Assembly: GCA_021770925.1 (NCBI GenBank)
Contig: JAETPY010000006.1
Span: forward strand, 1-54,249
Length of the DNA: 54,249 bases
Origin: Erysipelotrichaceae bacterium
GTDB lineage: Bacteria; Bacillota_I; Bacilli_A; Erysipelotrichales; Coprobacillaceae
Direction: 5' to 3'
Shown here: positions 1 to 13,966 of the stretch, in pieces
How the letters are laid out: the number at the start of each line of letters is the position of its first letter
Position numbering within the stretch: the first letter of the stretch is position 1
Notes under the pieces: model-generated
Told to the model about the DNA's origin: nothing
Databases searched by the model: none
Seen by the model: only the letters and a program-made list of their open reading frames with translations
Made by a program: the position numbers and the translations under genes

Positions 1-30
1 GCAAACTTTTTTTAGTTCCCCTAAAGTTGA

Positions 31-75
31 CCCCCAAATAATTTGGCTTTCCCCCTAAATTATTTGGTTACCCCC
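31..75. repeat. CCCCC/AAAT-ATTTGG tandem repeats, IS-end-like
   Basis: Two copies of AAAT(A/T)ATTTGG (36-46 and 57-67) are set between runs of five Cs at 31-35, 51-55 and 71-75, a period of about 20 bases. Multiple short repeats like this are typical of IS21-family ends, but no transposase is visible because the window starts here. It lies outside the inferred element boundary, so it would belong to host DNA downstream of guaA. Confidence 0.35.
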
Positions 76-105
76 TATTCTAAGGACATTTTTCATATTA
101 TCTAC

Positions 106-116
106 TATTCGAACTC
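106..116. repeat. Distal attachment-site copy (att core)
   Basis: TATTCGAACTC, identical to the copy at the guaA stop codon. Joining the sequence left of this copy to guaA gives a reading frame ending E-F-E followed by TAG, so the pre-insertion guaA would still end at the same residue. This supports it as the true outer end. Confidence 0.7.
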
Positions 117-218
117 AACCAAGGAAAACAGAACTTAAACAAATTTGCTTAAGAAATATCTTGCCTCGTGTTCTCATTAACTAGATTATTCATATTCTAT
201 CTCGTAGCTGATAGACTA

Positions 219-236
219 TTATCAAATACTTATCAG
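219..236. repeat. Arm-type repeat, distal end of the element
   Basis: TTATCAAATACTTATCAG matches the repeat at 12342-12359 at 16 of 18 bases. It overlaps a CTTATCA-GTAT-TGATAAG palindrome (229-246). Likely an integrase arm-binding site, by analogy with tyrosine recombinase att sites. Confidence 0.5.
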
Positions 237-271
237 TATTGATAAGCCAACCAGATACCTATAAAGAATAA

Positions 272-284
272 TATCGAGTGGCTA
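272..284. repeat. 13-bp inverted repeat, distal end (partner at 12301-12313)
   Basis: TATCGAGTGGCTA is the exact reverse complement of TAGCCACTCGATA at 12301-12313. The pair brackets the element just inside its ends and supports treating both ends as one unit. Confidence 0.55.
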
Positions 285-312
285 ACTGAATTTTACCATA
301 GAAATTAATCTT

Positions 313-1737
313 CTACAACGAATACAGAATCTTTTTTAGCAAATTTGAATATAAATAATTATCAAACTTCCCATATCTTGTATCGCCATAAAACTTTTCT
401 TCTCCATCAATATTCATTTTTGACATATATAATTCATTTCCGTCTTTATCATATTTTTGGAATAGTTCATTTATAAAGCTTTTTTCACTATCTTCTACTT
501 GGTTATTAAATTTAATCGGTCTTGAAGCTTTAAACATGTAACATTTGTCACTATAGTCTTTATCTTTGGAAATATCATCTGCTATAATAGCCAAATTAAC
601 ACCCTGAGGAAATTGAAACTCGTCTTGACCTTTCATTGATAAATAAGCAATTCCGTCAATTCCATATTCAGGAACAATCTCCATTAATAATTGTGATAAT
701 AAATAATGATATTTCCTCTTATCATTTTTATTTTTCATCGAGAATGACGTAGCCATAACTAAAGGAAATATTTTTAACATAGCAAGTTGTAACTCGTACT
801 TTTGTACATTATTCTCATCTTTTTGCTTATCATAGATTCCATTAATCAAAGCCTGAGAAACTGTCAAATTTAAAATTTTCAATGTTTTACCTCTAGTATT
901 CGGCACAAAAACAGATGCATACAAATCGTCATCTGCTTCATTCCAATCACATTCTTTACTACATACATATGTAGTTGTACCTAAATATAAGGCTGGAGTT
1001 CCTTTTACATTAAAACGCATATTGCTAGCTTTCTCTTTTAAATAATAAGGTAAATGATACATATGTTCAACTTTCTCTATTAAATTTTTATGATCATTCT
1101 TTCCTTTAGTACGTGTCCTATAAAAAGTAAGGTCTCTTTTCATAATTTCATCAGATTCATTTTCATAATAAAATGTAGGCACAACACATCTAAATGAATA
1201 AGAATCGTCTAGATTTGAAACTAAGAATTCGTCATCCTTTATATCAGATATAATTTTCTTTAGCATTTTTCTTGCAGTAGACTTATCTTCATGTATTAGT
1301 TTGTCAGCTATTTCTAGGATAGTATTACATTGACATTCAATAAAATCATATAATCCCTCTTCATAGATAAAACCTGGGTTATCTATAGATTTTAAATATT
1401 TATCAAATAGATCATTTAACGTATCAAAGTATTGACTACTATCATCTATTCTTATCGGTAAAGAAAATCCATTTAAATTATTATTCATATATGCACAAAC
1501 CCAAGTAAAAAAGTCACTTGTTTCTTTAGAGCAATAATCAGACGTTTCTTCTTTATTTTTTAATTTATACCTTTCGATTTCAGCATTTATGCATATAATC
1601 TTTGCACTTTGGTATTTTTTTATTTTTATTATTTCTTCTAATTCTCTTTTTGAAAATCCTCTGGGATTTATTCGAATATTAGGAAATAACGCAATTCCAT
1701 TATCTATCAATAAATAATATTTATTTTCTTCACTCAT
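313..1737 (-). CDS. RES-domain protein, candidate NAD+-degrading effector
   Basis: 474 aa. The middle of the protein has the RES signature: FYRTRT near residues 204-209, then RFNVKGTPALYLG near 241-253 and an SKECDW stretch near 260-265. These supply the Arg, the G/RFN..G.P.LYL core and the acidic residue conserved in RES proteins, a family known to break down NAD+ in toxin-antitoxin modules. The N-terminal ~190 residues are helical and charged and may be a HEPN/RES-type N-terminal domain, which I cannot confirm. The C-terminal ~200 residues are unassigned. No antitoxin-like small gene (Xre type) lies next to it. It is the last cargo gene, 202 bp after the SNF2 gene on the same strand. No signal peptide or membrane segment is seen, so it is probably cytosolic. 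Confidence 0.6.
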   Translation of the reverse strand: MSEENKYYLLIDNGIALFPNIRINPRGFSKRELEEIIKIKKYQSAKIICINAEIERYKLKNKEETSDYCSKETSDFFTWVCAYMNNNLNGFSLPIRIDDSSQYFDTLNDLFDKYLKSIDNPGFIYEEGLYDFIECQCNTILEIADKLIHEDKSTARKMLKKIISDIKDDEFLVSNLDDSYSFRCVVPTFYYENESDEIMKRDLTFYRTRTKGKNDHKNLIEKVEHMYHLPYYLKEKASNMRFNVKGTPALYLGTTTYVCSKECDWNEADDDLYASVFVPNTRGKTLKILNLTVSQALINGIYDKQKDENNVQKYELQLAMLKIFPLVMATSFSMKNKNDKRKYHYLLSQLLMEIVPEYGIDGIAYLSMKGQDEFQFPQGVNLAIIADDISKDKDYSDKCYMFKASRPIKFNNQVEDSEKSFINELFQKYDKDGNELYMSKMNIDGEEKFYGDTRYGKFDNYLYSNLLKKILYSL

Positions 1738-1939
1738 ATTTTCAAATCCTTAACATACAATTTAAAATTACAAACTTAATCAATAATTGACTTTTACTAA
1801 ACAATTACCAGCTATAATCTTTAACTCCTCATTATTAAAACATAATCTTATATCGTCTAAAATGTTTAATGAAATAATTTTTCTTTCATATCAGACTGTT
1901 TAAAAATCTTCGTTTTTTAAATTTTCAATATTTTATCCT

Positions 1940-4357
1940 TTATAATAATAATTTTTTAAAGAATTCTGAAGAAAATTCCGTTGGTTGATCGTGACCATGT
2001 AATAACTCGTTTGCAATGTTGTCCTTCTCATTTTGCAGATATTGTATTTTTTCTTCAATAGTATTTTCCATAATCAATTTGTAAATAAGGACATTCTTAT
2101 TTTGTCCAATTCTATATATTCTGTCCATTGCTTGTCTTTCAATGGCTGGATTCCACCATGGATCAAAAATGATAGCAGTATCAGCTGAAACAAGATTCAG
2201 TCCAGTACCTCCCGCTTTTAAGCTAATCAAAAAAACGCCATTTTCAGCTTTCTCAAAGTCATCTACAATGGACATTCTATCCTTTGTTTTTCCATCTAAA
2301 TAATAATAGTTAAAATGTTTATGTATAACTTCAGATTCAATTAATTTTAACATCTTTGTAAATCTGCTAAAGACAATAACTTTGTGACCATTACTATATA
2401 AGTTTTCTAATAAATCTAATAAGAATTCAAATTTTGCGGATTTATTACATTCATAGGGATTTAATTTTTTTGACAGTAATAATGGATGACAACATACCTC
2501 TTGCAAATATAGCAGCCCATTTAAAATCGCACTACTTGATTTTATTTCAAATCTTTTAGGTTTACGACATAACTCATATTTTACGCTTTCTAATAGCTTA
2601 TCATACAACTGTCGTTGCTCGTTTTCCATGGAAATCAATACATTTTGTTCTTGCTTACTTGGTAATTCTTTTAGAACATCTTTCTTTAATCGTCTTAAAA
2701 TAAATGGAGCACAAACAAGTCGAATATTATCAATCTTGTCATTTGATGAAATTTTTAAATTTCTAAAAGAATTTCTATTAATTAAATTCATTAATCCTAT
2801 AAATTCATTTATATTATTTTCAAATGGTGTGCCAGTCATAATAAATTTATTACCTATTTTTAGACTATCAATAGTTATATAAGCTTGACTTTTTGGATTT
2901 TTTATATACTGTGCTTCATCAACAATTAAATTATTGAAATTTAATTTTCTAATTGTCTCATAATCATTAATTAACGTTCTATAAGTGGTCAAAACGATAT
3001 CACAGTTATCATATTCTAAAAAACTCCTATTTGTTCCATAATATAACATCACTTTAAGTGATGATGTAAACTTCTTAATTTCTCTATCCCAGTTAATCAA
3101 TAAAGTCTTAGGTACAACTACCAAAGTTTTTTCACCTCTTAATTTTTTAGAAGTCAAAAAAGCTATTACTTGTAATGTTTTCCCTAATCCCATATCGTCA
3201 CTTAAGCAGCCACCAAAGCCATTTTGTTTTAATGATAACAACCATTTCACACCAACAATTTGATATGGTCTTAAAATTGATAATATATTTTCATCGATAT
3301 CTAAGCGTATAGAATTAAAACTTATAAAAGAATCTATATTTCTAATATTTTTTCCATTTAATGTCTGTGAAAAATACATAGCTGATATAAAATCTTTTTT
3401 TTCGATTTTTGCACAACCTTTATCAAGCTTTATGTTTTCATTAATTAACTTATCGGTGATATGGATGTACTTTCCAGACAATTCAACCCAATTATTTTTT
3501 TTTGATTTTAAGTCTATTAATTCAGCTATATCAACCTTGCTCTCATCTATTAAAGCATCTCCTTTTATATCAAACCAATCAATACCATATGAAACATTCA
3601 CATTTGAATAATTAACTGTCGCAATAGGAATACCTCTATTTGTATAAACTCTAATTCCGCAGTTTTTAAGTTTCAAAATAGATTCTTCTATTTGATTCCC
3701 TTCATAAATGAAGCCTTTTGATTTATCAAGTTTCCAACCTGATTCTTTTATATCTGAAATAATTTTTGATTCAAAACGAAAATCTCTTATTACATTATTT
3801 TGCTCATTAGAATGATTATGAGAATACTTAAACCCGTTATAATCAAACTCTACATTTAAAATATAACTAGTTGATTCAATATCAATAAACACACTTGGAA
3901 TTATGTTTACTAAATCAATATTATTTATTTTCTTATAATATATTTTCAAATTATCTTTTTCAAACTTATATTTAATACCATCAATTTCTAAATCATTTTT
4001 TTCTAGATAACTATAAACAAGTGATGAAATTTGAAACATTCCATATTTCTTAAATTTATAAAAAAAGCAATTCAAACTTAAAAATTCATCAAAATATTTT
4101 ATATTAGTACCAGAAATCATATATTGATTTTTTGAAATTTGGATATTAGAATTTAAATTTAAAAAACTTATTATTCTATTTAAATCAAATGAATTTATGT
4201 TATCAAAGTGTTTCTTTGAATTAATATTTATATTTCTCAGTTGTCCCGAAAATTTTTTGCTTTTTAAATTCGGGATATATCCTTCGTATGTTTCAATTAT
4301 CATTCTATTTTTCTTTTTACTTTCGTCAAAATTCAAACATATAATAATATCAGACAT
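1940..4357 (-). CDS. SNF2-family DEAD/DEAH-type helicase/ATPase
   Basis: 805 aa. The first ~355 residues resemble the bacterial SNF2-associated region, without a clear SWIM zinc finger. The C-terminal half is a complete SNF2 motor: DDMGLGKT (about residues 386-393, Walker A), DEAQ box in IVDEAQYIKNP (about 477), MTGTPFENN (motif III), and the second lobe with SLKAGGTGLNL and the arginine-rich motif VI QAMDRIYRIGQ (about 740). Such proteins translocate on double-stranded DNA and remodel bound protein; in bacteria they occur as RapA-like factors and in several defence systems. It begins 23 bp after the radical SAM gene stop, with a good AAGGAGG-type RBS, so the two are probably co-transcribed. 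Very AT-rich codon use, like the other cargo genes. Its specific role here is unknown. Confidence 0.85.
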   Translation of the reverse strand: MSDIIICLNFDESKKKNRMIIETYEGYIPNLKSKKFSGQLRNININSKKHFDNINSFDLNRIISFLNLNSNIQISKNQYMISGTNIKYFDEFLSLNCFFYKFKKYGMFQISSLVYSYLEKNDLEIDGIKYKFEKDNLKIYYKKINNIDLVNIIPSVFIDIESTSYILNVEFDYNGFKYSHNHSNEQNNVIRDFRFESKIISDIKESGWKLDKSKGFIYEGNQIEESILKLKNCGIRVYTNRGIPIATVNYSNVNVSYGIDWFDIKGDALIDESKVDIAELIDLKSKKNNWVELSGKYIHITDKLINENIKLDKGCAKIEKKDFISAMYFSQTLNGKNIRNIDSFISFNSIRLDIDENILSILRPYQIVGVKWLLSLKQNGFGGCLSDDMGLGKTLQVIAFLTSKKLRGEKTLVVVPKTLLINWDREIKKFTSSLKVMLYYGTNRSFLEYDNCDIVLTTYRTLINDYETIRKLNFNNLIVDEAQYIKNPKSQAYITIDSLKIGNKFIMTGTPFENNINEFIGLMNLINRNSFRNLKISSNDKIDNIRLVCAPFILRRLKKDVLKELPSKQEQNVLISMENEQRQLYDKLLESVKYELCRKPKRFEIKSSSAILNGLLYLQEVCCHPLLLSKKLNPYECNKSAKFEFLLDLLENLYSNGHKVIVFSRFTKMLKLIESEVIHKHFNYYYLDGKTKDRMSIVDDFEKAENGVFLISLKAGGTGLNLVSADTAIIFDPWWNPAIERQAMDRIYRIGQNKNVLIYKLIMENTIEEKIQYLQNEKDNIANELLHGHDQPTEFSSEFFKKLLL

Positions 4358-4380
4358 ACTACATTCCTCCTTAAAAAGAA

Positions 4381-5700
4381 CTATTCCTCAAAGAAATATT
4401 CATTATATTTCACCCTTTTATCAAGTAAACGCTCTTTATCTTTACATTGATACTCCCATTCGTCATTCATTGTCGAAGCATATTGAATACCTTTATACTT
4501 CATCCTACATCCACCACCACAGATATATTTAATCTCACAGTCTTTACAAATTTTTGTATTATCAACAGAGGTTGATTCTTTTATTTTCTCACTCATTCTA
4601 TCTATACTTACCAAGTCATCTGAAAAAACATTCATAGATGATTTTAATTCATGTATTCTATTACACCAATAAACATCTCCATTTGATGCTATGCTTAATC
4701 CACCAAATCCACAATTATTATGAATAGTCTTGTCTTTATAATTTAAATAAAATGATTCTGCATAATAATCTGGATATAGAGATTCAACTAATTTTTTTAA
4801 TTTGTTCTTATATAATTGATTTTCTTCGTCACTTACATTTACTTCTCTACCTGTGATCAATTCGTGATTTAATTTAACAAATACATTTGGCATTTTCTGC
4901 ATAAAATCTGTGGCAAAATCTTTAAATTTTTCAATAAATTCATCCAAGTTTTCATATAATGGAGTTACTGCAATAGAAACCTTTGTTCCATAAGAATCAA
5001 AAAGTTTTACTGTATCAATAGCTTTCTTAAATCCATTATATCTACGAACATCGTAATAAGATTTTTCATCATAACCATCTACACTAATCTGTATTTCATC
5101 GATATATTCATGCATTTCTGCAATATTATAACTGTTCCACAGAATCCCATTACTTAAAACTGTCACATTTAAACCTAATTGATGTGCCGATTTAATCACT
5201 TCTTTATATCCCGGATATATAGTTACTTCTCCACCAGTAAAAGTCACACCATTATATCCAATGTTTTTTAACCTTTTTAATAATTCAATCCACTTCTTAT
5301 AATCAACTTCATCTATTTTGATGTCTCCGGCATACATATAACAATGTCTACATCTTTGATTACAATTATTTGTAAGATAGATACAAATGTCTTTTACATC
5401 AGAATATTTAACAATTGGTCTATCAAATTTTTTTGCTTCAATTTGCATAACAACATTAATTACAGCATCATTATCATATTTTTTAAACAATTCTTCTAAG
5501 GTTACATGCTTGTTGTATATTCTATTGAATATTTCTAATTCTGTGTCATCATTTAGCACTATCCAAGTCGTACCTTTTATATAAATTGCCAAATATTTAT
5601 TTTGGTATTTTATTGTTCGAATTTCTTTAGGTAAATTATACGTTTTATTTAAATCAAGTTCTTCTTCTACAGAAATATCATTCATCAATTCATTAATCAT
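4381..5700 (-). CDS. Radical SAM/SPASM peptide maturase with N-terminal PqqD-like domain
   Basis: 439 aa. Residues ~20-95 look like a PqqD/RRE precursor-binding domain (WIVLNDDTELEIF followed by an HVTLEEL helix). The radical SAM core begins with C113-x3-C117-x2-C120 (NCNQRCRHC), followed by the GGE motif of TFTGGEVT. The C-terminal SPASM region has many cysteines: NNCGFGG, VYWCNR, CKDCEIKYICGGGC and a last Cys near YQCKDKE, enough for auxiliary Fe-S clusters. This architecture is that of RiPP maturases such as sactipeptide and ranthipeptide enzymes. The likely substrate is the 33-residue peptide encoded just upstream, separated by a hairpin. SNF2 follows 23 bp downstream. The family assignment is firm; the bond it forms cannot be read from sequence. 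Confidence 0.9.
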   Translation of the reverse strand: MINELMNDISVEEELDLNKTYNLPKEIRTIKYQNKYLAIYIKGTTWIVLNDDTELEIFNRIYNKHVTLEELFKKYDNDAVINVVMQIEAKKFDRPIVKYSDVKDICIYLTNNCNQRCRHCYMYAGDIKIDEVDYKKWIELLKRLKNIGYNGVTFTGGEVTIYPGYKEVIKSAHQLGLNVTVLSNGILWNSYNIAEMHEYIDEIQISVDGYDEKSYYDVRRYNGFKKAIDTVKLFDSYGTKVSIAVTPLYENLDEFIEKFKDFATDFMQKMPNVFVKLNHELITGREVNVSDEENQLYKNKLKKLVESLYPDYYAESFYLNYKDKTIHNNCGFGGLSIASNGDVYWCNRIHELKSSMNVFSDDLVSIDRMSEKIKESTSVDNTKICKDCEIKYICGGGCRMKYKGIQYASTMNDEWEYQCKDKERLLDKRVKYNEYFFEE

Positions 5701-5728
5701 AATCTAATCTCCCTCACATATAAAAATC

Positions 5729-5747
5729 GGTGTGACTAATGCACACC
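5729..5747 (-). terminator. Terminator/attenuator hairpin between peptide gene and maturase
   Basis: On the minus strand GGTGTG-CATTAGT-CACACC is followed by GATTTTTAT. It lies 18 bp after the peptide stop and about 28 bp before the maturase start. A leaky terminator here would give more precursor than maturase mRNA, as in many RiPP operons. Confidence 0.6.
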
Positions 5748-5765
5748 TTTTCATTAAAAAAACTT

Positions 5766-5867
5766 CTAGTTTTGATTTTTTTCACAATTTTTAAAACAAT
5801 ACATTGTGTTTAATCTCGAAGAATCTTTAACTTTTTTTACTTTCCAAGAAATTTTGACTGTTTTCAT
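5766..5867 (-). CDS. Small Cys-containing peptide, candidate RiPP precursor
   Basis: 33 aa. It has an ATG at 5867-5865, an AGGAGGT ribosome site ten bases upstream, its own promoter and a hairpin after the stop, so it looks like a real gene and not a chance frame. The N-terminal half is basic and leader-like (MKTVKISWKVKKVK). The C-terminal part holds a Y-C-F-K-N-C motif with cysteines at 24 and 28, then EKNQN. A C-x3-C pair is a plausible site for Cys-based crosslinks by the downstream radical SAM/SPASM enzyme. No secretion signal and no dedicated transporter are seen. Small Cys peptides next to radical SAM genes in clostridia (for example the Clo7bot group) are a possible comparison, which I could not test. 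Confidence 0.7.
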   Translation of the reverse strand: MKTVKISWKVKKVKDSSRLNTMYCFKNCEKNQN

Positions 5868-5909
5868 CGATGAATTACCTCCTATCTATAGTGTATATAT
5901 ACGTTAATA

Positions 5910-5938
5910 ATCGTATCATCATAGTAAATCATTGTCAA
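5910..5938 (-). promoter_or_regulatory. Promoter of the candidate RiPP precursor
   Basis: Minus strand -35 TTGACA (5938-5933), 17-bp spacer, -10 TACGAT (5915-5910), about 45 bp upstream of the ATG. This places the peptide gene first in its transcript, ahead of the maturase and SNF2 genes. Confidence 0.6.
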
Positions 5939-6044
5939 TAATTTACAAGTAGATTATCGTATTGTCGGATATTTATTATATAAAGCCATACATCAAATTA
6001 CAAATAATACTTTTTTTTATTTGATTTTCTTGAACATAATTTAA

Positions 6045-6992
6045 TTATAATTCATTACTTATTAACAAACTAAGTAATTTTTCACATTCATGAACGTCAA
6101 ATTTAGATACAATCGTATTTGAAGTATGTATATATTTGCAAGGAATAGATATTCCTATTTCTTTGCAACCATTGTCTATTTCATTAGTAATTATCATTTC
6201 TGTCGTCCCATTATCACTCACTTCATATTGATATACTATGTTTCCCTCATTAGAAATTTTTTCAATTTTTTTGACTAATTCGTAATTAGAAACTCCTAGA
6301 CTATCAGAAACTTTAATACATACTCCTTTTTGAATTTCTACACTATTCATTTTTCCAATATTAGTCACATCAACGGTTAAGCAAACATTTGGACAAATAT
6401 TTGTTTTTGCCACACGAATTCCTCTCATACCAATTTCTTCTTGTACTGTAAACACAAAATAAATATCTTCAACTGGTTTAATTCCATTTTTTAAAATTTC
6501 ACTTAAAATATATACTGAAATTCTATTATCTAATGCTTTACCACAATAAAAGTCTTCACTTTCAATTAACTTGTCAGCGAAAGTAAAAACTTCTCCAATC
6601 TTTATTTTATTGCTTGATAAATTTTTAAAAACCAAATTTTCATAATTATAAGCTGAGAATTCCCCTTCATTTATTGTATAAACAACCCCATATGAATTAT
6701 CTGATTTCATTCTGCTCTGACATAAATTCCACGTTTTGACATTCCCTAAACATTTAAATCTATATTCTTCATTATCAATTTCTTTAATAATTTGAATTCC
6801 AACTTCATCTACATGAGCACTTATCATTATTTTTTTGTTACTTTTACTTCCTTTTTTTAAACATATTAAATTACCAACATTATCTATATAAATATCATCA
6901 ACATCGTATTTTGATATAGTATCAAATAATATATTTACAATTTTAGATTCATACCCTGAAACACCTATACAATCGGAATATATTTTTAACAT
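6045..6992 (-). CDS. M42-family metallo-aminopeptidase
   Basis: 315 aa, near the low end for M42 glutamyl aminopeptidases/cellulases (usually 340-360). Metal and catalytic residues are all visible: SAHVDEVG (first His and Asp), GKALDNR (bridging Asp), VQEEIGMRG (catalytic Glu pair), LTVDVT (Asp) and a late His in KYIHTS. The family makes cytosolic two-zinc or two-cobalt aminopeptidases that trim peptides from the N-terminus, usually as large tetrahedral assemblies. It is the most upstream cargo gene, ending about 105 bp before the promoter of the small peptide. A role in trimming the modified peptide is possible, but it could equally be unrelated cargo. Confidence 0.85.
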   Translation of the reverse strand: MLKIYSDCIGVSGYESKIVNILFDTISKYDVDDIYIDNVGNLICLKKGSKSNKKIMISAHVDEVGIQIIKEIDNEEYRFKCLGNVKTWNLCQSRMKSDNSYGVVYTINEGEFSAYNYENLVFKNLSSNKIKIGEVFTFADKLIESEDFYCGKALDNRISVYILSEILKNGIKPVEDIYFVFTVQEEIGMRGIRVAKTNICPNVCLTVDVTNIGKMNSVEIQKGVCIKVSDSLGVSNYELVKKIEKISNEGNIVYQYEVSDNGTTEMIITNEIDNGCKEIGISIPCKYIHTSNTIVSKFDVHECEKLLSLLISNEL

Positions 6993-7083
6993 ATTACACC
7001 TTCTCTCTTGATTTATTTTAACATTCTAAATTGAATATTTCAAAAGAAAAGTATTTACCCAACCTTTTATATAGAAATAATTC

Positions 7084-7106
7084 CTAGATTTAACATAAAA
7101 ATCTAG
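7084..7106 (-). terminator. Hairpin after the relaxase gene
   Basis: CTAGATTT-TTATGTT-AAATCTAG, a perfect 8-bp stem about 90 bp after the mobV stop. The following tract is AT-rich but has no clean T run, so termination is uncertain. Confidence 0.3.
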
Positions 7107-7198
7107 CGAGTGAGATAGAGTGTAAATCAATAGATCATTTATGATATGTAAAGTTAAAATATCAGCTTTAAAACTAATACTTTAACCCTTTGAACGAC

Positions 7199-8413
7199 CT
7201 ATCTTTGAACCGATTTATCTATCTTTTTATCTTTTACTTTATGCTTGTCTACTTCAACAAGTAAAATCTTTTTTACAAATTCATTTACAAGCTCTGGTGC
7301 ACGTTTTAAGGCTTTCATAAAATCTTTTGTCTGCACTTTTAATTTTTCGTATCTATATTTCCAAATAGCTATATCCTTCTTTGCTTTTGTTAAAGCATGT
7401 TTTAAATCTAATATTTCAGCTTTTGCACTTACACCAGCTTTAGCTAATTTTTTCAAATCAGTAGCTTCTTTTTGAGTAAATTGAACTTTACCTGTAATTG
7501 TTGTTTGTCCCATTTTATCAATATCATCAAGCACTTTAGCTATTTCATTTTGTACTTTTGTTCTCTGTTCAATCTTCTTTAATTTCTGTTCTTTCTTTTC
7601 AATATACGTATTCAAAACTTCTAATCTTTCTTTATCTTGCTCAAGTTTAAATTGCGTAACAGATAGATGTTCTTCTGTGCTGCCACGTTCACCACGTTCT
7701 ACATCATCATATCCTTTTTTGCGCATAGCATTGAAAAAGTCATCTTGTAATACACTATAAGATTTTTTAAGAACCTTTTTTCCTGTACTGGTAAATATAA
7801 GATTTCCTTGCTCATCAACTGCTTGTTTTGATGCCCATTTTTTACTACTGCTGACCTGCATGATTGTTTCTTTTACAGTACCAACCAAAGATTTATCTTT
7901 ACAGCGTTTTGACCATAATATTTGTTTTTCTACAACCGGTACATAAACAACATGAAGATGGTAATGATAAACATCTTTGCCTAATGCTTCAGACATTGCT
8001 CGATTACGTTCATCAGCATGCATAACAGCAGATAAAATATATTGCTCACCACCAACAATATCAATAGAAGCTTGATAGGCATCTTCATAAAACTTTTTAG
8101 CAAACTCATAACCACCATGATTATGAAAGTATGCTGAATTGACATCAAATAATAACTCTCCATAATGAACAGCATCATCCTTTAATCCACGAGTAGAAAT
8201 AACACCGTCCTCTTTTAATTGTTCAAACATTTCTTCATAAGAGCGTGACGGTGTTTTAAAGTGAACATTAAATCGAGATCGATCTAAAACAATATCTGAA
8301 TTAACATAAATATCATTCATTCTTTCATTATGCTTTTGGGCATTAACAACATCAGTTTTCTTTAGATTTCGGTTCCTTGCAAATGTACGGTCAATACCAT
8401 CATTTCTTGCCAT
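7199..8413 (-). CDS. MobV-family relaxase (Mob/Pre plasmid recombination enzyme)
   Basis: 404 aa. The N-terminal relaxase domain contains the metal-binding HxHxxxxxP signature in YHYHLHVVYVPV (about residues 147-158), and an upstream N-R-N-L-K motif near the start where MobV proteins carry the first conserved motif. The C-terminal ~150 residues are a Lys/Glu-rich coiled coil (KLEQDKERLEVLN onward) ending in a basic tail. MobV enzymes nick oriT of pMV158-like plasmids and many integrative mobilizable elements and stay covalently attached to the strand during transfer. The matching oriT-like sequence is just upstream at 8461-8488. The gene follows a good AAAGGAG ribosome site. It is the last gene of the mobility block and borders the cargo. 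Confidence 0.9.
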   Translation of the reverse strand: MARNDGIDRTFARNRNLKKTDVVNAQKHNERMNDIYVNSDIVLDRSRFNVHFKTPSRSYEEMFEQLKEDGVISTRGLKDDAVHYGELLFDVNSAYFHNHGGYEFAKKFYEDAYQASIDIVGGEQYILSAVMHADERNRAMSEALGKDVYHYHLHVVYVPVVEKQILWSKRCKDKSLVGTVKETIMQVSSSKKWASKQAVDEQGNLIFTSTGKKVLKKSYSVLQDDFFNAMRKKGYDDVERGERGSTEEHLSVTQFKLEQDKERLEVLNTYIEKKEQKLKKIEQRTKVQNEIAKVLDDIDKMGQTTITGKVQFTQKEATDLKKLAKAGVSAKAEILDLKHALTKAKKDIAIWKYRYEKLKVQTKDFMKALKRAPELVNEFVKKILLVEVDKHKVKDKKIDKSVQR

Positions 8414-8460
8414 AGAACTCCTTTCAGTTTAAACACAATCCTTTGAAAGAGCACTTTTTC

Positions 8461-8488
8461 AAAGTGTAATAACCGACTATGATACTTT
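8461..8488. other. Putative oriT core (pMV158/MobV type)
   Basis: The minus strand reads AAAGTATCATAGTCGG followed by TTATTACACTTT, an imperfect inverted repeat with the AAAGTATNATAG...GGTTAT...ACTTT pattern of MobV origins. It sits 48 bp upstream of the MobV gene, where such origins occur. Flanking hairpins at 8439-8463 (CTTTGAAA/TTTCAAAG), 8531-8545 (GGCTC/GAGCC) and 8552-8574 (CCACGATTG/CAATCGTGG) make the whole intergenic stretch strongly structured. Confidence 0.55.
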
Positions 8489-8670
8489 CATCCTGCGTCT
8501 GCAAAGTACCGTGGGCTCTCCGAGGGTCATGCGGCTCTTTTCGAGCCTTTACCACGATTGTTTCTCAATCGTGGCACCTCAATTCAATGAATTTCGGTGA
8601 AGTAAACGAACGAAATATTGATTATATTTTCATAATCATTCCCTTCGTTTCCATCATTCCGTGTCGGTAT

Positions 8671-8746
8671 GTGACGATGGTGACAGTATATCAACACCGT
8701 CACTACCCATCAAGAAAACATCGTCACAACCGTCACGCATCGTCAC
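8671..8746. repeat. CGTCAC iteron-like repeats
   Basis: CGTCAC occurs at 8698, 8722, 8731 and 8741 on the plus strand and once inverted at 8671. Three of these extend to CATCGTCAC (8719-8727, 8738-8746, and inverted 8671-8679). They end at the stop codon of the RepA-like gene. They could bind that ATPase or an accessory protein in replication or relaxosome assembly. Confidence 0.5.
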
Positions 8747-9894
8747 TCTCGAAGAAAAGTTAAGCGTACTTTTCTTCCCTCGTGGAATCGCTTGTTCTCA
8801 TATTTGATATGATAATCATCTTTAAGATTACCAACATTGACATTCAATTTTAATGTTAATGCATTTGCTTTCATGTCAATACCGAGATATTCAACAAGCT
8901 CAGTTGGGCTTCCCATCCAGCATGGATTGTCCGCATTGATTCGCTTTGCGATTTCTTCTAATACTGGTTCAGATGGTTCTTCCCATATTTCGATTTCAGC
9001 CTTATCAAACTCCCATACAAGAGTTTGCTGATTACGAACAAGACGAAATCTTTGATCAGGCTGATCTCTACCCGATACATCAAGAACAGCACTGTTACTT
9101 GTTCGTTTTTCTTTTGTAAGAATAAACGCTCCATCTGCAGCACCAAGCAATCCATTCGTTCCTGATATTGAATCAAACTTGTCATTTGATTGTTGCTTTC
9201 TTGTATGATGTACAATAATGATACAAACGCCATTTGCATCAGCAAATGATTTTAATCTTGTAATGATTTGATAGTCACTTGCGTAGCTATAATTTTCTCC
9301 ACCCGTTTCTCTCACTTTTTGTAGAGTATCAATAATGATCAATTTGGTATCTGGTTGTTCTTTCATAAATTGAGTTAATTGTTCATCTAATCCCTCACCT
9401 AATTTACCTGCTGAAACAGAAAAGAACACGTTATCAGTACCTTCTGTACCAAACATACGATATAAGCGATCTTGCAAACGTTTATAAGTATCTTCTAATG
9501 CAAGATATAGTACTTTTGATTTTTTAACAGGAAGTCCCCATAGTGGAGTACCAGTACCTACATGATAAGCAAGTTGTGCCATCATAAAACTTTTACCCAG
9601 TTTAGGTGCTCCTACAAACAAGTAAGTTCCTTCATATAACAAGCCTTCAATCAATGGCGTTTTACTTTCATATACATTATCATATAATTGATTCATCGAA
9701 ACAACTTCAAGAAATGCAGGATCATTTTTTCGTTCTAATTCTTTCTGTAAATCTCTTAAAACCTCATCCATGGTCTTGAAATCATTGTCCCAATTGTCTA
9801 TACTATTTGTTGTACATATTAGATTTGACTGCTCAGCATCTGCGCCAACAGATACATCACAAGCAGTCATTTCTTTTTTATCATCGTTAATCAT
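8743..9894 (-). CDS. RepA-like AAA ATPase (DnaB/RecA-fold helicase of a mobile element)
   Basis: About 383 aa. Walker A is GAPKLGKS (residue ~100), Walker B is LIIIDTLQ, and the sensor stretch is CIIIVHHTRK, all in the order seen in AAA_25/RepA hexameric helicases of plasmids and integrative mobilizable elements. The last ~60 residues (PTELVEYLGID...) look like a winged-helix DNA-binding tail. The ATG at 9894 is preferred over the one at 9903 because the GGAG site abuts the latter. The reading frame overlaps the end of the mobC-like gene by a few bases, so the two are translationally coupled. It probably drives autonomous replication of the excised circle. Confidence 0.8.
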   Translation of the reverse strand: MINDDKKEMTACDVSVGADAEQSNLICTTNSIDNWDNDFKTMDEVLRDLQKELERKNDPAFLEVVSMNQLYDNVYESKTPLIEGLLYEGTYLFVGAPKLGKSFMMAQLAYHVGTGTPLWGLPVKKSKVLYLALEDTYKRLQDRLYRMFGTEGTDNVFFSVSAGKLGEGLDEQLTQFMKEQPDTKLIIIDTLQKVRETGGENYSYASDYQIITRLKSFADANGVCIIIVHHTRKQQSNDKFDSISGTNGLLGAADGAFILTKEKRTSNSAVLDVSGRDQPDQRFRLVRNQQTLVWEFDKAEIEIWEEPSEPVLEEIAKRINADNPCWMGSPTELVEYLGIDMKANALTLKLNVNVGNLKDDYHIKYENKRFHEGRKVRLTFLRE

Positions 9895-10219
9895 CACTTT
9901 CATCTCCTTTTAATCCTTTCATCATAACTGTTATTAAATCAATCGTATCAAGTATGTCATCTGCAACATCACCTCCTTGAGCTATTCTTTGAAGTTCTTC
10001 ATAAATGCCATCCATTTGTGTTTTTAAAGCCTTAAACACTCTAGGATTGGGTTGAACCACCACTTCTCTATTCATACATTTTCGATAACAGTATTCCTGC
10101 TTAGGAAGTCCAGATAAAGCAACTGCACGATTCAGTTCTGCCTGTTCTTCTGGTGAAACTCTAAAACCTACAGTAATACTTCTAAAACGATTACGTTTAT
10201 CAACATTTTTCGCAGTCAT
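9887..10219 (-). CDS. MobC-like relaxosome accessory protein
   Basis: 110 aa. An N-terminal ribbon-helix-helix pattern (ITVGFRVSPEEQAELNRAV, then PKQEYCYRKCM) is followed by an acidic helical tail. This is typical of MobC proteins that bind oriT and help the relaxase open the DNA. It starts 4 bp after the integrase stop with an AAAGGAG site and overlaps the RepA-like gene. A ribbon-helix-helix regulator with another job is the alternative. Confidence 0.65.
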   Translation of the reverse strand: MTAKNVDKRNRFRSITVGFRVSPEEQAELNRAVALSGLPKQEYCYRKCMNREVVVQPNPRVFKALKTQMDGIYEELQRIAQGGDVADDILDTIDLITVMMKGLKGDESDD

Positions 10220-10223
10220 AATC

Positions 10224-11300
10224 TCACGCTCCTTTGTTCATATCATTTAATTTAGTAGCCATTTCAATTTGTTTAGATGGGAATAAATGAGCATAACGAT
10301 ATGTGATATCTATACTTTCATGTCCAACTCTATCTGCTATCGCCACAGCTGAAAATCCCATATCAATCAACAAACTGATATGACTATGACGTAAATCATG
10401 AATTCTAATTCTTTTTACACCAGCTTCTTTAGAACCTCTGTCCATTTCATGGTGCAAGTAACTTTTAGTAATATTAAATATCCTATCTTTCTTTCTCAAT
10501 CCATACTGCAATTGAAAGAACTCTTGCATCTCAGCTGCTAGAAAATCTGGCATTTGAACTGTTCGATTACTCTTTCGTGTTTTAGGTGAAGTAATCACAT
10601 CTTGTCCTTTTAAACGTTGATAGGACTTACTTATCTTGACTGTTTTCTTTTCAAAATCAAAATCTGCAGGAGTTAAAGCTAACAGTTCACCCTCACGTAT
10701 TCCAGTCCAATAAAGCATTTCAAATGCATAAAATGAAATAGGTTTATCCATTATCACTTCACTAAACTTTTGATACTCCTCTTTTGTCCAAAACAACATT
10801 TCTTTACTTTCTTCAACACCCATATTTCCAGCTTTAGCAGCTGGATTACTACGAAGATCGTAGTATCTGATTGCATGATTGAAGATAGCAGATAGTTGAT
10901 TATGAACAGTTTTTAAATAAGTTTGAGAATATGGTTGTCTATTTTCATCTCGAAATGCAAGCAGTTGGTTTTGCCATTCAATGACATCTTTTGTTGTAAT
11001 CTCATTGATTTTTTTCTCTTTGAAGTAAGGCAAAATCTTTTTTGTGATAATATGCTCTTTTGTCAGCCAAGTATTTTCTTTTATTCTTGGTTTAATATCT
11101 TGACAATAAAGTTCAATAAAAGCATCAAATGGCATTTCTAAATCACCTGCTGTCTGCTGATGAAAAACTCTTTCCCATGCAAGTGCTTCTTTCTTAGTTT
11201 TAAAACCACGTTTACATTTAGATTTCCTCGCTCCAGTCCAATCGGTGTATTGAGTAACAACATACCATGAACTATCATTTTCATATTTATAAGCTGGCAT
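10224..11300 (-). CDS. int: Tyrosine recombinase (integrase) of the guaA-site element
   Basis: 358 aa, normal for ICE/IME and phage integrases. The N-terminus has an arm-binding AP2-like region (WYVVTQYTDWTGARKSK) and a SAM-like core-binding domain. The catalytic residues are present: Arg in WTGIREGELLAL (about 200), H-x-x-R in HDLRHSH (about 300), His in VGHES and the nucleophilic Tyr in TYRYAHLF (about 336). Its ATG overlaps the excisionase stop (TAATG), so the two are coupled. It lies about 1.1 kb from the guaA junction. The likely substrates are the TATTCGAACTC cores at both ends. Confidence 0.93.
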   Translation of the reverse strand: MPAYKYENDSSWYVVTQYTDWTGARKSKCKRGFKTKKEALAWERVFHQQTAGDLEMPFDAFIELYCQDIKPRIKENTWLTKEHIITKKILPYFKEKKINEITTKDVIEWQNQLLAFRDENRQPYSQTYLKTVHNQLSAIFNHAIRYYDLRSNPAAKAGNMGVEESKEMLFWTKEEYQKFSEVIMDKPISFYAFEMLYWTGIREGELLALTPADFDFEKKTVKISKSYQRLKGQDVITSPKTRKSNRTVQMPDFLAAEMQEFFQLQYGLRKKDRIFNITKSYLHHEMDRGSKEAGVKRIRIHDLRHSHISLLIDMGFSAVAIADRVGHESIDITYRYAHLFPSKQIEMATKLNDMNKGA

Positions 11301-11488
11301 TAGTCATTCCTCCTTTCCATTCCATATAATCTTTCGCCAAAATACTGTCTACTTACTTTACCAGCAATTGTGATATAACCTTTTGCTTTCAATTCATCAT
11401 TAAGTTTTTTCACAATCTTATAAGCATGTCCTACAGAAATACTTAACTCTTTAGCAACTTCTTCAGCTGTAATCAATGAACTTTCCAT
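11300..11488 (-). CDS. xis: Excisionase-like helix-turn-helix protein
   Basis: 62 aa with a winged-helix/MerR-like motif (ITAEEVAKELSISVGHAYKIV) typical of excisionases and of small DNA-binding proteins placed before integrases. It overlaps int through TAATG. A strong RBS (AAGGAGG) and a sigma-A promoter lie upstream. It probably biases the integrase towards excision; a transcription regulator is the alternative. Confidence 0.7.
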   Translation of the reverse strand: MESSLITAEEVAKELSISVGHAYKIVKKLNDELKAKGYITIAGKVSRQYFGERLYGMERRND

Positions 11489-11536
11489 GATATCCCTCCT
11501 TTCTACACTAACGCTTTTTGTTTAACTTTCGATTTG

Positions 11537-11565
11537 ATTATACTAAGCATATTCCGTTAAGTCAA
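11537..11565 (-). promoter_or_regulatory. Promoter of the xis-int-mob-rep operon
   Basis: Minus strand TTGACT (11565-11560), 17-bp spacer, TATAAT (11542-11537), ideal for sigma-A and about 50 bp before xis. It faces the XRE gene promoter. Confidence 0.75.
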
Positions 11566-11584
11566 GTGGTTTAAGAGAAAATAC

Positions 11585-11600
11585 TAAACATTTTTGTTTA
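11585..11600. promoter_or_regulatory. Operator-like palindrome O1 for the XRE repressor
   Basis: TAAACA-TTTT-TGTTTA, perfect 6-bp arms, lying between the two divergent promoters. Confidence 0.5.
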
Positions 11601-11607
11601 TGTTCAA

Positions 11608-11637
11608 TTGACATAACTTAAACATATTTGTTATAAT
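11608..11637 (+). promoter_or_regulatory. Promoter of the XRE regulator gene
   Basis: TTGACA (11608-11613), 18-bp spacer, TATAAT (11632-11637), 37 bp before the ATG. Confidence 0.75.
11619..11634. promoter_or_regulatory. Operator-like palindrome O2 overlapping the XRE promoter
   Basis: TAAACA-TATT-TGTTAT, the same motif as O1 34 bp away. It covers the spacer and -10 of the XRE gene promoter, so binding would repress the regulator's own gene. A further TTGTTTAA half-site lies near 11517-11524, before xis. Confidence 0.5.
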
Positions 11638-11673
11638 CAAATCAAGAAATACATGATAAGGAAGTGATTACAT

Positions 11674-12198
11674 ATGGCAATAGGTGAAAGAATACGTTTT
11701 ATTCGTAATTTACGTGGCTTTACACAAAAGTGGCTTGGTACAGCTGTTGGCTTTCCAGAAAAAACAGCAGATATCCGTATGGCTCAGTATGAATCTGGTT
11801 CAAGAACTCCTAAAGATGATTTAGTACAAGCAGTAGCTGATGTGCTTGAAGTATCTCCTCTAGCTTTAAAAGTTCCTGATATAGATAGTAATATAGGATT
11901 TATTCATACTTTGTTTGCAGTTGAAGATTTACATGGTTGCAATGTTGAAGAAATTGATGGTCAAGTTCATCTTGTCTTTGATGTTAAGAAACCATCTACT
12001 GATCCACAAATCTTTCAAATGCTCATGTCTTGGGCAAAGCAAGCTGAGAAATTCCGTAATGGAGAAATATCCAAGGAACAATATGATCAATGGCGATATA
12101 CTTATCCAAGAATGGATAAATCTCAATACTTTGTTAAAGTCATGCCTCAAGATTTAAGCGATGCCATCGTTAAAGGTCTTGAGAACGAAGAAAAATAA
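11674..12198 (+). CDS. XRE-family transcriptional regulator of the element
   Basis: 174 aa. An N-terminal Cro/CI helix-turn-helix (IGERIRFIRNLRGFTQKWLG... then YESGSRTPKDDLVQAVADVL) is followed by an acidic C-terminal domain of ~100 residues without a Ser-Lys peptidase pair that I can see. It is the only plus-strand gene of the element and is divergent from xis-int. Two TAAACA-N4-TGTT palindromes in the shared intergenic region suggest that it represses both directions. An AAGGAAG ribosome site precedes the ATG. Confidence 0.85.
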   Translation: MAIGERIRFIRNLRGFTQKWLGTAVGFPEKTADIRMAQYESGSRTPKDDLVQAVADVLEVSPLALKVPDIDSNIGFIHTLFAVEDLHGCNVEEIDGQVHLVFDVKKPSTDPQIFQMLMSWAKQAEKFRNGEISKEQYDQWRYTYPRMDKSQYFVKVMPQDLSDAIVKGLENEEK

Positions 12199-12217
12199 AC
12201 CTAAAGACGTAAAAATC

Positions 12218-12243
12218 CCGTACTGACATATCCATCAGTACGG
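12218..12243 (+). terminator. Terminator of the XRE gene
   Basis: CCGTACTGA-N8-TCAGTACGG followed by AATCATTTATTTAT, 20 bp after the stop codon. Confidence 0.6.
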
Positions 12244-12300
12244 AATCATTTATTTATATGAATATTTCTAGCGAGCCACTATTTATGACTCTTTTCTCGA

Positions 12301-12313
12301 TAGCCACTCGATA
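12301..12313. repeat. 13-bp inverted repeat, guaA end (partner at 272-284)
   Basis: TAGCCACTCGATA, the exact reverse complement of the copy at 272-284. A related GCGAGCCACTA lies 30 bp to the left. Confidence 0.55.
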
Positions 12314-12341
12314 CCAAGAATAATGGCATATTATGGCAATC

Positions 12342-12359
12342 TTATCAAATTCTTATCAA
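12342..12359. repeat. Arm-type repeat, guaA end of the element
   Basis: TTATCAAATTCTTATCAA, itself two TTATCAAA half-repeats, matches the distal copy at 219-236. It lies about 60 bp from the att core, a plausible distance for an integrase arm site. Confidence 0.5.
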
Positions 12360-12418
12360 AGCCATATACCAATGTTCAATTTACCATGATTTTATGGGCT
12401 TTTTTTGAATTTTGAAAA

Positions 12419-13966
12419 TTATTCGAACTCTATTGTCCCTGGTGGTTTTGAAGTAATATCATACATTACTCTGTTTACCCCACGAACTTCATTTATAATT
12501 CTAGACATAACTTTATTTAATACTTCATATGGAATTTGTGCTGCTTCAGCCGTCATGAAATCAATTGTGTTAACTGCACGTAATGCAACAGCATAATCAT
12601 AAGTTCTTTCATCACCCATAACACCAACAGAACGCATATTTGTTAAAGCTGCAAAGTATTGACCAATTGATTTATCTAAGCCTGCTTTAGCAATCTCTTC
12701 TCTATAGATTGCATCAGCATCTTGAACAATTTTAACCTTTTCACCAGTAACTTCACCAATAATTCTGATTCCAAGTCCTGGTCCTGGGAATGGTTGTCTA
12801 AAGACTAAATATTCAGGAATACCTAATTCTAGTCCGACTTTACGAACTTCATCTTTGAAAAGATCACGTAATGGCTCAATAATTTCTTTGAAGTCTACAG
12901 CATCAGGCAATCCTCCAACATTATGATGAGATTTAATTACTGCTGATTCTCCACCTAAGCCACTTTCAACAACATCAGGATAAATAGTTCCTTGAACTAA
13001 GAAATCTACCACTCCGATCTTTTTAGCTTCTTCTTCAAAAACACGAATAAATTCTTCACCAATAATTTTACGTTTAGTTTCTGGTTCTGTAACTCCTTTT
13101 AATTTTGTGTAATATCTTTCTTGAGCATTAACACGAATAAAGTTTAAATCATATTGCCCTTCTAGTCCAAACACGGCTTCTACTTCATCACCTTCATTTT
13201 TACGAAGTAATCCATGATCAACAAATACACATGTCAATTGATTTCCAATTGCTTTAGATAACAATACTGCCGCAACAGAAGAATCAACTCCACCAGATAA
13301 GGCACATAATACTTTACCATTACCAATTCTTTCTCTAATTGCTTTAATTTGTTCTTCAACAAATGAATCCATACGCCAGTCACCACTACAATTACATACA
13401 TCTAAAACAAAGTTAGATAAAATATTTTTTCCATATTCAGTATGTAATACTTCTGGATGAAATTGAATCGCATATAACTTTTGATCAACTTTTTCACATG
13501 AAGCTACTGGACAATCTTTAGTATAAGAAGTAATTTTAAAACCTGGTCCAATCTTAGAAATATAATCAAAATGACTCATCCAGCAAATCGATTCTTCAGG
13601 AACATCCTTAAATAACTTAGAATCTTTATCATTTACAATTAAATTAGATTTACCATATTCTCTAACATCAGCTCTTTCAACTTTACCACCTAAAATATGC
13701 TGCATCAACTGAGCTCCATAACATAACCCTAATACTGGAATTCCTAATTCAAATAACTCTTTTTTATATGTTGGAGAATCTTCTAAATAACAGCTGTTAG
13801 GGCCACCAGTTAAAATAATTCCCTTAGGATTCATTTCTTTGATCTTTTCAATATCCGTTTTATAAGAATAAATCTCACAATACACATTGCATTCACGAAC
13901 CCTACGAGCCACTAATTGATTATATTGACCACCAAAATCAATAACAATAACTAACTCTCTTTTCAC
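12419..13966 (-). CDS. guaA: GMP synthase (glutamine-hydrolysing)
   Basis: 515 aa, full length. It converts XMP to GMP using glutamine and ATP. The N-terminal class I amidotransferase has the nucleophile Cys in GLCYGAQLM and the His in FHPEV; the ATP-pyrophosphatase has the P-loop SGGVDSSV; the C-terminal dimerization domain ends PPGTIEFE. It starts at GTG 13966 behind a GGAGGAAG site. It begins 12 bp after the purA stop, so the two genes of the terminal purine branches are one operon. Its last codons and stop form the attachment site of the mobile element. Confidence 0.97.
12420..12430. repeat. guaA-proximal attachment-site copy (att core)
   Basis: TATTCGAACTC overlapping the last three guaA codons and its TAA stop (read on the minus strand as GAG TTC GAA TA). 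It rebuilds the guaA 3' end after insertion, the usual arrangement for tyrosine-recombinase elements using a gene 3' end. Confidence 0.7.

Follow-up and report, generated by a model that had tools for sequence, protein, structure and literature searches.

A putative four-gene RiPP module linking a small cysteine peptide to an SNF2 ATPase on a mobilizable element

The window studied here, the whole 54,249-nucleotide stretch of contig JAETPY010000006.1 from an Erysipelotrichaceae bacterium, carries four co-directional genes in the order M42 peptidase, 33-residue peptide, radical SAM/SPASM maturase and SNF2-family ATPase, all within a mobilizable element (Table 1). We propose that these genes form a RiPP module, in which the short basic leader of the precursor, with its conserved Trp8, would be bound by the maturase, the cysteines of the core would be linked to nearby residues through thioethers, and the M42 aminopeptidase would next remove the leader. 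The small, strongly conserved product would be retained in the cell and act as a ligand, cofactor or signal on or with the SNF2 ATPase, and for such an SNF2-linked product a conflict or defence function would be probable. Taken whole, as a four-gene module with an intracellular, cross-linked peptide tied to SNF2, we regard this reading, which was drawn from sequence, as evenly balanced between right and wrong. The first-pass annotation of this DNA had recognised the precursor and maturase, a pair that holds, and had overlooked the M42 peptidase, the SNF2 ATPase and the mobile element. With these three, the locus is no routine pair but an unusual module.

Table 1 Features of the module and of the element that carries it (positions in the window)
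Feature	Position	Strand	Remarks
Left att core	106..116		TATTCGAACTC, one of exactly two copies in the window
SNF2-family ATPase	1940..4357	-	PF00176 E 2.2e-63, PF00271 E 4.9e-23
Radical SAM/SPASM maturase	4381..5700	-	PF04055 E 2.4e-23
Terminator-like hairpin	5729..5747	-	in the peptide/maturase interval, followed by GATTTTTATA
Precursor peptide gene, 33 aa	5766..5867	-	homologs in L031, L032 and L087, and a longer one in L033
Conserved core, residues 22-33	5804-5769	-	codons of the core; leader is about residues 1-21
Ribosome-binding site AGGAGGT	5877..5883	-	9 nt between its end and the ATG
Promoter-like TTGACA-17-TACGAT	5910..5938	-	of the peptide gene, extended -10; equivalents in L031, L032 and L087
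M42-family aminopeptidase	6045..6992	-	PF05343 E 6.5e-50
Mobility genes	7199..11488	-	Pfam
Mob_Pre relaxase	7199-8413	-
AAA_25 protein	8743-9903	-
NikA-like protein	9887-10219	-
Tyrosine integrase	10224-11300	-
Small HTH-like protein	11300-11488	-	below Pfam cut-offs; excisionase-like by position
HTH protein	11674-12198
Right att core	12420..12430		over the guaA stop codon / 3' end
guaA	12419-13966

The peptide gene and its pairing with the maturase

The maturase clade is known from few loci, five in all: the window, L031, L032, L033 and L087. L031 and L032 came from a scan in which each species was represented by one genome and matches were sought to exact short peptide patterns, an approach that can overlook relatives. 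L033 and L087 were selected on the maturase alone and therefore provide an independent test of the pairing. Identity to the window maturase is 58% in L031, 51% in L032, 37% in L087 and 32% in L033. A homologous peptide gene occurs with each of the four relatives, so that the small gene called in the first-pass annotation is real and a chance ORF was rejected. Its product in the window, MKTVKISWKVKKVKDSSRLNTMYCFKNCEKNQN, does end in the Y-C-x3-C tail that had been described, and the AGGAGGT site claimed for it is likewise present. Directly upstream of the maturase in L031, L032 and L087, the gene encodes peptides sharing 27/33, 24/33 and 17/33 residues with that of the window; in L033, the plasmid pTS1 of Treponema saccharophilum, it lies 3.3 kb downstream of the maturase, beyond the SNF2 gene and a methyltransferase gene. 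The expectation that every maturase copy would have a small peptide gene at the same place was thus borne out for presence (four of four relatives) and for position in three, the Treponema gene being the one placed downstream.

L087 (genome G1150) emerged when 392 genomes were searched with a profile. Its peptide, MEKIVLSWEVKSIEDASRVAAMYCFKSCSANQN, ranks first among 189 small ORFs (115 vs 41), and its genes follow the order M42, peptide, maturase, SNF2 on a contig of only 7.8 kb; the L032 locus is split by a contig end. The Treponema plasmid contains two small ORFs that are unannotated in the record's table and were first spotted by eye. The second of them, MKTLTLTWNV...FKNC, is, out of 526 small ORFs, the one most similar to the three known peptides, with a score of 52.7 vs 31.7 for the next unrelated ORF and none of 2000 shuffles as high. 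Immediately before this conserved precursor, at L033:12453-12587 (+), lies a Cys-rich small ORF (KCFGCFNCCCVM) with an LTWNV start and a Gly-rich tail, which suggests that one Treponema saccharophilum maturase may serve two peptides.

Purifying selection is visible at the codon level. Over the whole peptide, synonymous and non-synonymous differences number 14/6 between the window and L031, 14/9 between the window and L032, and 9/10 between L031 and L032, and over the 12 core codons the same comparisons give 7/1, 9/0 and 5/1. Together with the homologous small ORF in all four relatives, this upholds the proposed RiPP precursor–maturase pair, and we hold the pairing to be near certain. Another account would make the small ORF fortuitous, or a non-coding leader, and have the maturase act on a different protein. 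The ORF is indeed short, and its Treponema homologs went unannotated, but the homologs with four of four relatives, the synonymous codon changes and the recurring control signals leave this account hardly credible.

Those control signals had also been noted in the first-pass annotation. The promoter-like site is present, and TTGACA-17-TATAAT or TATAGT stands upstream of the peptide in L031 (12/12), L032 (11/12) and L087 (12/12); across the window, promoter-like matches number 11 against a shuffle mean of 14.6, and are thus not commoner than chance. GGAGGT is unchanged in three of three aligned loci. The hairpin between peptide and maturase is likewise present, with a modest RNA fold in the window (z -1.78, 11 of 200 shuffles being equally good). 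A terminator scan was positive in L032 and in L087, where the terminator has 12 pairs, and found none in L031; as a fold, the hairpin reaches z -3.25 in L031 despite that negative scan, and z -6.65 in L032. Promoter, ribosome site and hairpin all recur in the three relatives with the peptide upstream. Rfam gave no match over window positions 1-12500.

With a promoter-like site of its own and a hairpin following it, the peptide is probably made in excess over the maturase, whose gene would be reached by what is probably read-through of the hairpin. Such an excess would suit a toxin-antitoxin-like or regulatory arrangement, in which the SNF2 protein or the element is controlled by the peptide, with or without modification, and the cross-link acts as a switch. 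We consider this quite improbable, however, since a maturase requires a substrate and no other conserved small gene was found beside it, and since toxicity is without support.

The maturase and the predicted core chemistry

The maturase has its CxxxCxxC motif at residues 113-120 and its SPASM cysteines at residues 330, 346, 385, 388, 394, 398 and 419. All seven of the latter are invariant in the four aligned maturase rows and, with the radical SAM match (Table 1), they confirm the earlier assignment to the radical SAM/SPASM enzymes, although the Pfam SPASM model scores 15.3 in the window, below its cut-off of 21.5; it passes in L033 and L087 and is unlisted for L031. The PqqD-like N-terminal domain that had been described, an element present in many though not all radical SAM/SPASM maturases, is supported only weakly. 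A comparison of the first 100 residues with eight PqqD sequences gave a weak profile match (P 0.0038 and HHsuite probability 8.7% with four rows; P 0.011 and 3.7% with twelve), which with each alignment lay above 60 of 60 column shuffles, but Pfam returned no PqqD match in the window maturase up to E 10. A PqqD-like RRE within these 100 residues is no more than plausible.

The best NCBIfam match of the window maturase is StsB (NF045574, 110.8 bits), which we take to be the streptosactin maturase, and StsB is matched by four of four members. Membership of that family was rejected, as 110.8 bits compares with a curated cut-off of 625. The mycofactocin and PqqE maturase models are among many radical SAM models that match all four members, far below their cut-offs. 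In a tree against eleven outgroup rows, the five SNF2-linked maturases fall on one side of a branch with support 100/99; G049 was dropped because of a stop in frame, Mycetohabitans was added, and the outgroup rows carry a long-branch warning.

Conservation of the precursor is concentrated in its tail, MYCFK-N/S-C-xx-NQN, which is better conserved than the leader and has the consensus MYCFKxCxxNQN in the four 33-residue peptides. We chose the boundary between leader and core after inspecting the alignment. Among three peptides, 11/12 core positions are invariant vs 10/21 in the leader (Fisher P 0.022, with the boundary fixed after alignment), and among four, 9/12 vs 4/21. In all four 33-residue peptides, the third residue after either cysteine is Asn or Ser (Cys24-N/S27 and Cys28-N31), and L087, which differs at residues 29-30, retains N31. 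When the window tail is shuffled, 3.0% of the shuffles have N, S or T three residues after each cysteine, and 1.5% do so with rings that do not overlap. The Treponema peptides fit the pattern only partly, with T, C and T at these positions in peptide 2 and C, C, V, M and A in peptide 1.

Streptosactin is described in passages of PMC8172795 and PMC13361665 as having two four-residue sactionine rings, Cys25-Ser28 and Cys31-Gly34; in one place PMC8172795 prints Cys15. This parallel and the N/S at Cys+3 lead us to predict two tandem rings, most likely Cys24-Asn27 and Cys28-Asn31, successive and of four residues each. That the peptide is cross-linked by thioethers at all seems to us probable, and the linkage may be at the alpha- or the beta-carbon. 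The two C-x-x-N/S rings amount to a precise chemical prediction, and the compactness of the module makes it directly testable.

Partner genes, known systems and possible roles

The SNF2 gene begins 23 nt past the maturase stop, and its motor motifs look intact by eye. An SNF2 gene follows the maturase in all five loci, the window included, and in none of the ten outgroup loci. The latter were taken from eight non-clade genomes passing a profile E of 1e-30 and two from the relatives sample; no SNF2, M42 or peptide homolog was found in them at E 0.01, L047 and L048 being shortened by contig ends. For the N-terminal part of the SNF2 protein, nothing beyond a sub-threshold SNF2_assoc match was obtained, and that in L031. 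An intact M42 gene precedes the peptide in the window, L031 and L087, its 3' end does so in L032, and the Treponema plasmid record lacks it. Three aligned M42 copies retain, by eye, the motifs that we take to form the metal site, and M42 is the probable leader-trimming protease.

Just upstream in L032 lies a 96-base piece containing the in-frame M42 3' end. An intact M42 gene occurs elsewhere in the same genome: it contains those same 96 bases, sits at the end of a second contig and belongs to an element that also carries an integrase and a guaA-like gene. L072:8480-8575 and L073:155-250, from one genome, are 96 identical bases with different flanks. Such sharing next to the module may stem from rearrangement, duplication or an assembly chimera.

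Radical SAM RiPPs are mostly viewed as exported antibiotics, signals or redox cofactors. Here, three observations favour an intracellular role with SNF2: Pfam detected no transporter in any of the window element's ten larger ORFs, conservation is higher in the core than in the leader, and SNF2 is the most constant partner. Counting against that role are the Treponema peptides, which are not adjacent to the maturase, the lack of M42 on that plasmid, and the annotation of a MATE efflux transporter on the opposite strand, some 4 kb away from the maturase in Treponema. The MATE gene would suit an exported sactipeptide or ranthipeptide bacteriocin whose transporter lies elsewhere in the genome and for which SNF2 is a passenger, as would the best NCBIfam match, to a sactipeptide maturase family (StsB, 110.8 bits), and some outgroup maturases that seemingly lie beside ABC-type genes, judged from the first ORF residues only. 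We nevertheless think a bacteriocin unlikely, given that SNF2 is retained in five of five loci down to 32-37% maturase identity, that the window element yielded no transporter in its ten larger ORFs, and that the core, not the leader, is the more conserved part. Bacteriocin cores are usually variable. An immunity gene may be present within the element.

The PQQ and mycofactocin pathways, like the window module, combine a RiPP with a radical SAM maturase, and they have peptidase trimming and a conserved product. They differ in that the partner here is SNF2 and that the window maturase scores far below their family cut-offs. A peptide-derived cofactor or signal of this kind, trimmed by M42 with SNF2 as regulator, would account for the conserved core and the peptidase partner, and is in keeping with the sub-cut-off matches of the mycofactocin and PqqE models to all four members. 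It is improbable in our judgement: Pfam found no oxidoreductase in the ten larger ORFs that the window element contains, the flavin reductase and 2-dehydropantoate 2-reductase annotated in the Treponema stretch lie on the opposite strand and outside the conserved module, and SNF2 is not known to be a client of PQQ- or mycofactocin-like cofactors.

The streptosactin (GGG-type) pathway of streptococci shares with the module a small precursor, a radical SAM/SPASM maturase and a separate protease, and resembles it further in that StsB is the best NCBIfam match and that a pair of four-residue rings is found there. The window module is distinguished by M42 and SNF2, by its strongly conserved core, and by an StsB score well short of the cut-off (110.8 vs 625). 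The streptosactin maturase is called GggB in passages of PMC8172795 and PMC13361665. PMC7159879 describes conflict systems that unite a metallopeptidase, a radical SAM/SPASM enzyme and an NTPase with a precursor conserved at its C-terminus, and it proposes a role as peptide toxin or signal for the VMAP/FtsH ternary systems. As presented there, the VMAP/FtsH units share with our module the metallopeptidase, the small precursor with its conserved C-terminal peptide, the radical SAM/SPASM enzyme and the coupling to an NTPase, but have an AP-ATPase and an FxSxx-ended peptide where the window has SNF2 and a Cys core. By Pfam, the ten larger ORFs of the element in the window include neither vWA/MoxR nor AP-ATPase partners.

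The SNF2 motor is strongly similar to the SNF2-type ATPases of the Dpd, Zorya and DISARM systems (DpdE 412.9 bits, ZorD 345.9 bits); the window protein differs in being linked to a RiPP maturase. A PADLOC scan of five window proteins found none of the companion genes of these systems and no dedicated defence family, only general SNF2 and radical SAM (viperin) similarity. PMC12715929 lists SWI2/SNF2 ATPase domains among the families found clustered around class II lanthipeptide genes and, for radical-SAM peptides in the vicinity of phage defence, cites work by another group; the words 'helicase' and 'SNF2' are absent from PMC9062424. In searches of the PMC literature, at the level of titles and abstract openings and with subscription journals mostly outside, none of the papers listed described a radical SAM peptide maturase linked to SNF2.

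A defence function in particular is possible, at somewhat less than even chances, and slightly more tentative still is the specific picture of a mobile system for immunity or conflict whose SNF2 ATPase, on DNA, would have the cross-linked RiPP as its dedicated ligand or cofactor, the peptide then being an intracellular component of a nucleic-acid motor. Alternatively, SNF2 itself could be the real system, with the peptide regulating it. A nearly fixed core is tied to a DNA-motor ATPase, usually together with a peptidase, in hosts from Lachnospiraceae to Treponema, and if the peptide does serve SNF2 it would represent a new type of intracellular job for RiPPs. The comparison also adds precursor genes where annotation had overlooked them, at least in the Treponema record.

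The mobile element, its hosts and its rarity

The window copy of the module is carried by an element of roughly 12.3 kb that sits in the guaA 3' end, as delimited by the 11-base TATTCGAACTC at 106 and 12420, the left copy being 105 bases from the contig end. Its tyrosine integrase, its relaxase and the att repeat at the guaA 3' end are those of an integrative mobilizable element. A 50% identical integrase adjoins a guaA-like gene in the L032 genome. L031 and L032 are hosted by Lachnospiraceae; G1150, the source of L087, belongs to the order of G540, which is the L032 genome and whose GuaA is 76% identical to that of the window, a value compatible with a Bacillota host for the latter though no proof of one.

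Neighbours of defence type differ between loci and may be merely markers of mobile DNA. Four neighbour genes that we picked in L031, L032 and L033 for the defence scan match candidate defence or restriction-modification families, which speaks for a conflict or defence role. They encode an FRG protein with a PDC-S15 match (L033:6744-7886), a weakly mad2-like methyltransferase (L033:11783-12367), an M.Eco57I-like end (L031:35-484) and PDC-S13 (L032:4660-5556).

The clade is rare in the genomes sampled. Beyond the seed, which is counted in every sample size, members numbered 0/196 among relatives, 0/395 in the class, 0/397 in the family of G539, 0/145 in a further sample, 0/392 in the phylum, 1/392 in the order of G540 and 0/6 in the genus of G1150; the samples overlap, and weaker matches in those of 196, 395, 397 and 145 genomes were not counted as clade. 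Viral contigs yielded no relative. Plasmids gave nothing with the window peptide, and with the Treponema peptide gave that peptide itself (97.7%) and 1110 other records. Among the matches listed besides itself, all have E 2-6 and were taken as chance; they comprise zinc-finger-like or hypothetical proteins of enterobacteria and, from Streptomyces, a single match of 20 residues. The SNF2 N-terminal region had no plasmid match, Treponema included. Phage searches returned 19 records with the window maturase, none above 82 bits, and a single record, at 104 bits, with that of Treponema.

Two further observations concern the left end of the element. A 474-aa cargo ORF at 313-1737 (-) has a sub-threshold RES-domain match (E 0.001, 19.6 bits vs a cut-off of 23.2) and may act on NAD, as RES proteins do. 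It was rejected as a fifth part of the module, with no homolog at E 0.01 in L031, L032 or L033 and a best E of 2.4 in L087. Outside the left att core, positions 1-105 at the contig edge contain, by eye, short imperfect repeats of the type CCCCCTAAATTATTTGG, perhaps the end of a further repeat that broke the assembly.
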